Part shown: piece after piece, positions 14,778 through 48,581 of the stretch
Layout of the letters: every line of letters begins with the position of its first letter
Numbering within the stretch: position 1 is the first letter of the stretch
NCBI GenBank assembly: GCA_937981995.1
Contig: CALJNC010000057.1
Span: 1 to 54,083, forward strand
Direction of reading: 5' to 3'
From: an uncultured Chitinophagaceae bacterium
GTDB taxonomy: Bacteria > Bacteroidota > Bacteroidia > Chitinophagales > Chitinophagaceae
DNA: 54,083 nucleotides
The notes under the pieces: generated by a model
The model's input: the letters and a program-made list of their open reading frames with translations, nothing else
The model's database searches: none
What the model was told of the DNA's origin: nothing
Made by a program: the position numbers and the translations under genes

Positions 14778-15091
14778 ATAGTCGGTTCATCCTTAAGCAA
14801 ACGCATTTTTCTAAGAATCTTTTTTTCATAATTCCAGAAAAACTTAAATTGACCAAAAGGAATTGAAACAATAAGTATGATAATTTGATACCCAAAAATT
14901 AGCATACCTACTCTTAATCCAAAACCAATCCACCAATCACCTGACCAAGTAATGGCATCGGAAACTCCAACCCATTTAGTTATTGCTTTTGAAATGTAAG
15001 CAGTAGTGGAACCCGTAATACCAAATACGCAGAATATTAGAAACAAATCTAGGTTACTAACCTTCCACTTTTTTTTCAATTTTTCTAACAT
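14774..15091 (-). CDS. small two-segment membrane protein (DUF6787-like)
   Basis: 105 residues: a basic N-terminus (MLEKLKKKWKVSN), a membrane segment (LDLFLIFCVFGITGSTTAYI), a loop with several Trp, a second segment (GLRVGMLIFGYQIIILIVSI), then PFGQFKFFWNYEKK. This pattern (KKWKV, then a membrane helix, then IPFGQF-FFW-YEK) matches a small Bacteroidota family that I recall as DUF6787; the name is from memory. It lies 8 bases downstream of nuoG on the same strand, so the two are probably one operon, which could mean a role near the respiratory chain. Confidence 0.6.
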   Translation of the reverse strand: MLEKLKKKWKVSNLDLFLIFCVFGITGSTTAYISKAITKWVGVSDAITWSGDWWIGFGLRVGMLIFGYQIIILIVSIPFGQFKFFWNYEKKILRKMRLLKDEPTI

Positions 15092-46586: not shown

Positions 46587-48041
46587 CTACTTTTTGTTTT
46601 TTAGAATGCTGCCTCTGGGTTGATCGCCAGGCAGCAGTACGAGCTCAGAATGTAAAAAAGTGGCTGCTGCAGCTGAATCTTGAACTTTAATGGAAGTGCG
46701 TTCTAGCATTTCAGCTTCAAATTCGTTTAAAACACTTTTTCTTATTCCTTGTTTGCGCCAGTTAGATAATGGTCTGCAATTGTTAGTAATGCTGCGTGCA
46801 AGGGCCAGAGCATCTAACAATGCTTGGTTAGCGCCTTGTCCTTTAAACGGACTCATAGGATGTGCTGCATCGCCTAATAAAGTAACCATTCCGGCCTGTG
46901 CAATTTCACTTGGTCTTAATACAGCACGATCATAAACAGGATAACCTGAAACTTGAGTTGCATTAGTTGCATTTAAAATTTCGGGGATTGGTTTGTGCCA
47001 AGGACATCGCCGAATGGCTTCCGCTTTTAATGCAGATGGTCCTTTTTTACTTAACGCGTTGGCATCATTTTCTGGCATAGGAAAACTAAGCTGCCACATA
47101 ATAGCATCTTTAGTAAATGGCATCATGTAAATGCGTTCAATCCCATTGGCCGTTTGAAAAATAGTAGCACCATCTATAAGAGGATTTTTTAATCCTTTCA
47201 GATTTTCTAATGGGCATATGCCTAAGATTACAATACAATCTAAATAGTTTAAAGGAGCGTTCTTTTCTTTAAAAAGGACGTTGCGTACTGAACTACGAAT
47301 ACCATCCGCTCCAATTAAAAGATCTGTTTTTGTTTTTATTGTTTTGCCGTCAACCTTAAAACTTAGTTCAACGCTTTGAGCATTCGTTTCTTGAAAATCT
47401 ATTAACTGATGGCCCCATTGAACTTTATCGTGGCCACCTAATTGTTCAAGCAATTCCATGCGCAATGCTTGGCGTGCAATATGAATATTGCTTTTTTGAC
47501 CATGTTTATTATTTTCTTTTTTCAACCATTTGCGCATGCCCCATTCTCCTAGAACCTTACCTTCAGTAGTATGCATTAGATGTCTTGTGGATACTACGCC
47601 CTCTTTTAAATATGGAAGACCAAGGCCTGCCATGGCTCTACTTGCTTGTTGTAGGGTAAGGCCATAACCTTGAGCGCGTGCATCAAAGCTATGGTCGCGC
47701 TCGTAAAGGGTAAAAGGAATGCCCCGGTGCAAACAAGCTATTGCAAGTGCCGTGCCGCCAATGCCGCCACCTATTATTGCAAGGTGAGGGTAGTTTTCAG
47801 TGTCAGCTACTGTAGGTTGGTTACTTGAATTTAATCCACTGCCATTACAATTTTCGCAAGGATATAAGGCTCCTTTGGGTTGAATAGGTGCAGTTTCTTT
47901 TTTGTTTGACTTTTCAAATTGTTCAAGCTCTTGTTGATATTGTAGGCGCGCTTTTTTACGCACGCGTCTTCTTTTTTTGCCGCGTCCTTGGCATGTTGGG
48001 CAAGTGGTCCAATTTGTATTTTTATTTATTTCTTGTTTCAA
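46587..48041 (-). CDS. FAD-dependent monooxygenase with N-terminal DnaJ-type zinc-binding module
   Basis: 484 residues. Two DnaJ-like CxxCxGxG motifs, CPTCQGRG (Cys14, Cys17) and CENCNGSG (Cys62, Cys65), flank a basic coiled segment (KKRRRVRKKARLQYQQELEQ). Together they have the four Cys of a single zinc centre. The rest is a class A flavoprotein hydroxylase (PHBH/UbiH fold): GGGIGG (91-96), the DG motif LIGADGIRSSVRNV, and GDAAHPMSPFKGQGANQAL near the C-terminus. The only in-frame start is a TTG at 48041, which overlaps a full -7 box (TAACTTTG, 48046-48039), so the true start or promoter is uncertain. The substrate is unknown. Confidence 0.85.
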   Translation of the reverse strand: MKQEINKNTNWTTCPTCQGRGKKRRRVRKKARLQYQQELEQFEKSNKKETAPIQPKGALYPCENCNGSGLNSSNQPTVADTENYPHLAIIGGGIGGTALAIACLHRGIPFTLYERDHSFDARAQGYGLTLQQASRAMAGLGLPYLKEGVVSTRHLMHTTEGKVLGEWGMRKWLKKENNKHGQKSNIHIARQALRMELLEQLGGHDKVQWGHQLIDFQETNAQSVELSFKVDGKTIKTKTDLLIGADGIRSSVRNVLFKEKNAPLNYLDCIVILGICPLENLKGLKNPLIDGATIFQTANGIERIYMMPFTKDAIMWQLSFPMPENDANALSKKGPSALKAEAIRRCPWHKPIPEILNATNATQVSGYPVYDRAVLRPSEIAQAGMVTLLGDAAHPMSPFKGQGANQALLDALALARSITNNCRPLSNWRKQGIRKSVLNEFEAEMLERTSIKVQDSAAAATFLHSELVLLPGDQPRGSILKNKK

Positions 48042-48104: not shown

Positions 48105-48581
48105 TTAACTGCTTTTTTTAATTGATCTATCCCTAATTACACGAACTATTCTCTTCGCCTCAATTCTATGAGGAATAATAATTTCAAAATTCTGATAATC
48201 AATTATTTTTTCATCTTCTTCCTCAATATGCATGTTTTCATTCGAAAATAAATTACCAAACTCCTTTATAAAATCTGAGTAACTATAGAATTTATGATGT
48301 TCAGCCCCTTGTCCAATAGAGAACCAATCTCCAGCATGAATAGGAAAGTCTTTCTCTTCTAGTTTGAAAACAAATCCGTTGAAATTAGAATTTATTTTCC
48401 TCCAAGATTTTAAATTGCTTTTCCAGCTATTGTTTAACGTCTTGTTTCGGGTATAAGGAAAACACCAAACACCCTTCAATTCATTCTCATCGTAGTCCTT
48501 ATTCTTCCTACGCTTTGGTTTAATGCCATTTTTTACAATGTCATTGGTATTATTCTGTTTTGTCCAATGTATTAAAAGCAT
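48105..48581 (-). CDS. protein of unknown function, possibly ADP-ribosyltransferase-like
   Basis: 158 residues, no signal peptide, Lys- and Asn-rich. The beginning (LLIHWTKQNN, then DIVKNGIKPKRR) has the H-x-T...I-x-x-x-G-(I/L) shape seen at the start of many ADP-ribosyltransferase-fold proteins. Tyr99/Tyr101 (FYSYSDFIKEF) and Glu133 in NFEIIIPHRIEAKRIVRV could be the further positions of the pattern, the last strand looking like 'E-x-x-I-P-x-x-I'. I do not recognise the family, and this match is only a pattern by eye. It stands alone; no obvious antitoxin is adjacent. Confidence 0.5.
   Translation of the reverse strand: MLLIHWTKQNNTNDIVKNGIKPKRRKNKDYDENELKGVWCFPYTRNKTLNNSWKSNLKSWRKINSNFNGFVFKLEEKDFPIHAGDWFSIGQGAEHHKFYSYSDFIKEFGNLFSNENMHIEEEDEKIIDYQNFEIIIPHRIEAKRIVRVIRDRSIKKSS

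Follow-up and report, generated by a model that had tools for sequence, protein, structure and literature searches.

The locus studied here lies on a contig of an uncultured Chitinophagaceae bacterium (CALJNC010000057.1, assembly GCA_937981995.1), from which a stretch of 54,083 nucleotides, referred to as the window, was analysed. One of its genes encodes a protein in which a putative zinc module precedes a flavin monooxygenase domain. Class A flavin monooxygenases normally work without such a zinc part. The locus raises the question of what the module does in front of the enzyme, and whether the fusion is a peculiarity of this gene or the property of a family.

Gene structure and class of the flavin domain

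The gene occupies positions 46587..48041 on the minus strand. ORF translation and family alignments defined an intact reading frame running from 48041 to 46587, which specifies 484 residues from a TTG start with the stop codon within the span; across the same positions the plus strand, read in frame 1, is interrupted by many stops. The coordinates given by the first-pass annotation were right; it had left the strand unstated. All features described below are on the minus strand. The two CxxCxGxG motifs which that annotation had placed ahead of the flavin domain were recovered in the translation as claimed: CPTCQGRG with Cys14 and Cys17 (residues 14-21, 47979..48002) and CENCNGSG with Cys62 and Cys65 (residues 62-69, 47835..47858), both also recognised from conservation. 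They belong to an N-terminal module of residues 10-75 (47817..48014), delimited by its predicted fold and its four cysteines. Between the motifs lie a basic stretch (residues 22-34, 47940..47978) and, according to DSSP on the predicted models, a helix separating the two knuckles (residues 29-44, 47910..47957).

In order to compare the family, 111 distinct full-length sequences, the window protein included, were aligned. They were selected as frames of 420-620 residues with the QGYGL and GDAAHP motifs and take in all 80 loci of a scan of named genomes; 11 loci were omitted, being weak matches or other proteins. The TTG start of the window gene is located 13 codons before Cys14 and is the sole ATG, GTG or TTG codon upstream in frame. 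No in-frame ATG precedes the first cysteine in 65 of the 111 sequences; all 65 have a GTG or TTG upstream, situated 10 or 13 codons before that cysteine in 60 of them, so the TTG of the window is usual for the family. The other 46 have some upstream ATG, which in some of them lies only inside the module, the nearest 1 or 4 codons before the cysteine. Gene callers restricted to ATG would remove the module. A misread start joining an unrelated upstream stretch, or motifs arising by chance, was considered on account of the non-ATG start in the window. The same fused frame with all four cysteines in 111 of 111 sequences, the purifying selection described below and the family-wide use of GTG and TTG exclude chance motifs and leave this explanation with a negligible probability.

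Behind the motifs, a class A FAD monooxygenase domain had been proposed, and both a Pfam match above cut-off and the predicted fold bear this out. FAD_binding_3 was matched over residues 88-419 (46785..47780) with 58.2 bits against a cut-off of 22 (E 1.1e-15), and the best Foldseek match reached E 1.1e-25. Alignment located GGGIGG at residues 91-96 (47754..47771), which we take to be the dinucleotide-binding motif of the flavin part, GADGIRSSVR at residues 244-253 (47283..47312), presumably the DG motif of class A flavin monooxygenases, and GDAAHPMSPFKGQGANQ at residues 390-406 (46824..46874), presumably their GD motif. All of 58 family members matched FAD_binding_3 at E 0.1 or better. Among 26 aligned sequences, the GxGxxG motif reads GGGIGG or GAGIGG, with GMGMAG in one, and GADG(I/V)RS and GDAAHPMSPFKGQGANQ are present too.

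The flavin part resembles AbsH3, the tropone monooxygenase TrlE and Tet(X), by sequence and by fold. It shares with the TetX, HpxO, TrlE and AbsH3 enzymes the FAD motifs and the flavin fold (Foldseek E down to 1.1e-25, with 19-25% identity among the 50 matches listed); we know of no enzyme of this type that carries such a zinc module. Against NCBIfam equivalogs, the protein fell far below the cut-off in the best 25 of 83 models, the top score being 123.9 bits against 400. An identity as Tet(X) tetracycline destructase was rejected, at 57 bits against a cut-off of 750. Judging from sequence and predicted fold, the window protein is most likely a TetX/HpxO-like class A hydroxylase.

Conservation and distribution of the fused family

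The four cysteines (Cys14, Cys17, Cys62 and Cys65) as well as Gly19, Gly21, Gly69 and Pro55 are kept in 111 of 111 sequences, and Pro52, Gly67 and Trp11 in 99%, 97% and 96% of them. The first-pass annotation had reasoned that a zinc module would be refuted if homologues lost the cysteines freely; loss was seen in none of the 111 distinct sequences, and no frame of 420-620 residues with QGYGL and GDAAHP lacked a CxxCxGxG motif. At least two exact motifs were found at 77 of the best 80 loci (out of at least 568 relatives), and at the remaining three (L059, L100 and L106) the second motif reads CxxCxAxG, with alanine for the first glycine. The basic segment pointed out between the motifs is equally real: the net charge of residues 18-34, which is +10 in the window protein, is positive in every one of the 111 sequences (+5 to +11, mean +7.7).

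The module is under purifying selection, with a summed dN/dS of 0.19 against 0.13 for the flavin part (simple counting over 152 and 154 non-independent pairs, respectively). In the alignment of 111 sequences, the mean share of the majority residue was 0.84 in the first motif, 0.72 in the linker, 0.77 in the second motif, 0.60 in the tether and 0.84 in the flavin part. By this measure, the motifs stand out from the adjoining tether, yet over its whole length the module does not exceed the enzyme in conservation.

The distribution of the family was examined at several taxonomic depths. Within the order of the window, 10 of 149 genomes matched at E 1e-30, its own included, and the other nine proteins are 59-65% identical over nearly the full length. 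A database search with the module alone, as proposed in the first-pass annotation, returned 22 of 395 genomes of the phylum, and the full protein returned the identical 22, again with the genome of the window among them. Every module match in the phylum is part of an open frame 477-513 residues long, and none was found apart from the flavin protein at E 0.001 in the 395 genomes. A search of 198 genomes of the phylum with a limit of E 1e-20 and at most eight candidates scored per genome gave nine matches, all below E 1e-250, and no module-less relative; the fused family is thus sharply bounded. Relatives outside the family were likewise absent at E 1e-20 from 210 genomes of the class of genome G1064 (at most seven candidates scored per genome) and at E 1e-30 from 369 genomes of the class of G525, a bin named as a gammaproteobacterium (at most four per genome); these two genome sets overlap. 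In the own genome of the window, the sole other match had E 1e-5 and covered part of the flavin domain.

The scan of named genomes gave at least 568 relatives, and the module was present in all of the best 80. These are mostly from Flavobacterium, and also from Aequorivita, Gillisia, Gelidibacter, other Bacteroidota and two bins named gammaproteobacteria. The genome of Flavobacterium sp. ZT3R18 encodes the fused enzyme twice, in two differing copies. In the class of G525, 3 of 369 genomes matched, namely both bins and one more. Of 249 genomes of its phylum, four, one of them the bin itself, have the module at E 1e-30 or near, and all four of these strong matches lie in frames of 483-515 residues with the flavin part fused. 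Five weak module matches (E 0.005-0.007) occurred in four further genomes and in G1021; at one of the weak matches (L157), no frame of more than 300 residues contained the motif. The suspicion that the architecture is recurrent rather than unique was therefore correct, with 22 of 395 phylum genomes, 80 of the 80 best named-genome relatives and a few proteobacteria carrying it.

The six proteobacterial sequences fell in two groups, with supports of 92 and 94, when the flavin part was placed in a quick tree with midpoint rooting only. Both groups emerge with Bacteroidota groups at one unresolved fork; 44 of the 108 branches are open and the branch of the window protein is long. This placement and the patchy occurrence of the family suggest that the fused gene was transferred horizontally. 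Plasmid records matching the full protein numbered 141, all with less than 60% identity and none over more than 80% of the protein, and the viral contigs gave one distant match of 25% identity. The module alone matched no plasmid and no viral contig, and one phage record at E 0.6. On the low identity of the plasmid matches and the lack of any plasmid or viral-contig match for the module, plasmid or phage cargo was rejected.

For the gene neighbourhood, ATG-started frames within about 4 kb of the 80 loci (some flanks being shorter) were clustered and the 25 largest clusters compared. None of them is a conserved neighbour across the 80 loci; the commonest, read as a serine hydrolase, occurs near 14 of 80, on either side. 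In the window, a short-chain dehydrogenase (SDR) gene follows 54 bases downstream on the same strand, and then an RNase T-like exonuclease gene. This arrangement is absent from the 25 largest clusters; relatives of the SDR gene may be present in an SDR cluster found near 5 of the 80 loci. Just upstream of the fused gene, a minus-strand frame of 158 residues (48108-48581) had no Pfam match at E 1. Two Bacteroidota bins (L105 and L132) share their direct upstream and downstream neighbours, the downstream one being read as a DsbA-like protein of thioredoxin fold.

No published description of a fusion between such a zinc module and a flavin enzyme was found in the open-licence literature searched. 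The fusion is real and recurrent, and it forms a strictly conserved, discrete family, a variant on a known enzyme class.

Predicted fold of the module and its relation to zinc hairpins

The full-length model had a mean pLDDT of 81 and a pTM of 0.83. Over residues 11-90, the tether included, the block averages were 83-93. The module alone (residues 8-78, modelled with 58 sequences) reached a mean pLDDT of 90.3 and a pTM of 0.57. Its predicted topology is E-E-H-E-E, in which strand, motif and strand are followed by the helix and by a second strand, motif and strand, so that a hairpin is formed at each CxxCxGxG motif. The two hairpins would probably share one zinc ion. The first-pass annotation had also named, as a refuting outcome, a predicted structure that leaves the four cysteines apart; the hairpin predicted at each motif speaks against this indirectly.

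The description of the module as DnaJ-like holds for the fusion of two motifs to a flavin enzyme, and it does not hold in the sense of a DnaJ domain proper. DnaJ_CXXCXGXG (PF00684) scored 21.6 bits with the whole protein and 24.1 bits with the module alone, in two stretches, against a Pfam cut-off of 32.7, and was matched at E 0.1 by 39 of 58 family members. Still weaker Pfam names obtained with the module alone include anti-TRAP, RNase E/G and BSD2. No J domain appeared among the Pfam matches of the window protein down to E 1. With two motifs in 484 residues, a profile score below cut-off and no J domain, an identity as DnaJ protein or J-domain cochaperone was rejected.

The DnaJ cysteine-rich domain and BSD2 have the CxxCxGxG motifs and the hairpins in common with the module, and both profile and fold matches are weak. 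The DnaJ domain has four motifs and two zinc ions, whereas the window module has two motifs, one presumed zinc and a basic helix between them. In DnaJ, motifs 1 and 4 pair to form the outer zinc site and motifs 2 and 3 the inner one. The DnaJ protein encoded by the genome of the window has four motifs, with the outer pair spaced by 57 residues and the inner pair by 26; the two motifs of the window module are spaced by 48. By analogy rather than shown descent, the module may be pictured as the outer DnaJ zinc site, with the basic helix in place of the inner one. ZnJ2 likewise is a four-motif domain (PMC5818400).

Searches of solved structures gave no match to the module at a Foldseek E of 0.001 and none at Z 4 with a second aligner. 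The Foldseek matches, all weak, were headed by BSD2 (6ekb, E 0.10), DNAJA2 (0.25) and lambda Q (0.88); further rows were UvrA at E 1.6 and worse, with an rmsd of 1.6-2.4 in four of five rows, and anti-TRAP at 2.3. The 21 rows also include a Ycf2-FtsHi complex, cystatin B and a phycobilisome. The second aligner gave Z values of 3.9 for DNAJA2 (7zhs_A), 3.3 for BSD2, 3.0 for lambda Q, 3.0 for anti-TRAP and 2.8 for UvrA, a range in which the predicted module and these structures may share a common arrangement alone. These five are cysteine-knuckle proteins that presumably interact with nucleic acids or other proteins, the matched regions presumably being their zinc sites. UvrA, lambda Q and anti-TRAP are other proteins in other contexts, lacking a flavin domain, and their matches are too weak for kinship. 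In a sequence search of the PDB, the top matches of the module were PPR repeats, aligned piecewise via the helix (three among the matches listed), and were regarded as artefacts; other matches were a DnaJ chain (1exk) at E 0.008 and anti-TRAP at 0.12. The second motif gave a short match to a Q-like PHROG at E 2.8e-5.

Two other frames of the same genome carry related motifs. One on contig C7 near position 14984, read as RNase G/E-like, has a single CPSCDGTGK resembling the first motif. Another (contig C56, 27215-27472) is a short, mostly acidic lipoprotein-like frame with many tandem CxxCxGxG-like units.

Candidate roles of the module

By analogy with its family, the protein would act as a single-component class A flavin monooxygenase: the GGGIGG and GD motifs would bind FAD, NAD(P)H would reduce it, and the substrate would be oxygenated via a flavin hydroperoxide. 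The N-terminal module would consist of two CxxCxGxG hairpins around one zinc ion with the conserved basic helix between them, and its basic face would be the site at which an acidic partner docks. Candidates for this partner are a carrier protein, a substrate that is itself protein or nucleic acid, and a partner with a regulatory function. Recruitment of a protein or RNA substrate, as suggested in the first-pass annotation, is thereby a candidate role. That the module docks an acidic partner or substrate through this face is the interpretation we tentatively favour, at not quite an even chance. It is consistent with the constant association of module and flavin part and with the four cysteines and the basic stretch being kept in all 111 sequences. 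The confident prediction of module and tether, the low dN/dS of the module and the cysteine-knuckle proteins at the top of the weak fold matches fit it too. Against it stand the lack of conserved neighbours (the commonest cluster being near 14 of 80 loci only), the weak fold matches with unrelated proteins among them, and a linker less conserved than the flavin part (0.72 versus 0.84).

The tether between module and enzyme is short and confidently predicted (residues 71-90, block pLDDT of 88 and 93), which a purely structural role would suit equally well. In that case the zinc module would be a cap that stabilises the flavin domain or its dimer and has no binding partner. In RNase E/G, a single CxxCxGxG motif serves assembly, and the RNase G-like frame with CPSCDGTGK provides an example in the same genome; the absence of free-standing module matches from the 395 phylum genomes also fits. 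A cap would have no need of a strongly basic stretch that is positive in every sequence, and none of the class A enzymes among the fold matches listed is known to carry such a module. It is for the first of these reasons, the invariant positive charge, that docking is favoured over a structural role, which we consider somewhat less likely; the basic stretch might also lie against an acidic patch within the protein itself. A redox switch, in which the four cysteines free zinc on oxidation and thereby turn the enzyme on or off, is quite unlikely. A four-cysteine site would be well placed beside a flavin able to leak peroxide, and Hsp33 and the zinc chaperone Ruc offer precedents, zinc release on oxidation being reported for Ruc (PMC7448276); Ruc is largely disordered, whereas the module is predicted to be ordered. 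Less probable still is a DnaJ-like chaperone or Hsp70-client module acting on unfolded protein. DNAJA2 and BSD2 do head the fold-match lists and 39 of 58 members do match PF00684 weakly, but the module has two motifs instead of four, lacks a J domain and stays below the Pfam cut-off. Chaperones are also not alone among its weak fold matches, where proteins related to nucleic acids appear as well.

A more specific form of docking would be a hydroxylase whose basic one-zinc module recruits the substrate to be oxidised, either a macromolecule or a compound bound to a carrier. This version, which we regard as unlikely, would make the protein in principle the prokaryotic equivalent of MICAL, the eukaryotic flavin monooxygenase of actin, with a DnaJ/UvrA-like zinc domain in place of LIM. 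The likeness is one of idea: MICAL joins its flavin monooxygenase part to zinc (LIM) domains and to domains for protein docking, but it is eukaryotic and has a different zinc domain at the other end of the protein.

Among the sequences compared, which come from at least two phyla, not one has lost the cysteines or the basic face. As they are invariant in an enzyme class that normally does without such a part, an unusual substrate or an unusual control is to be expected. If the module does recruit a protein, a nucleic acid or a carrier protein, bacterial flavin hydroxylation would extend beyond small free molecules.
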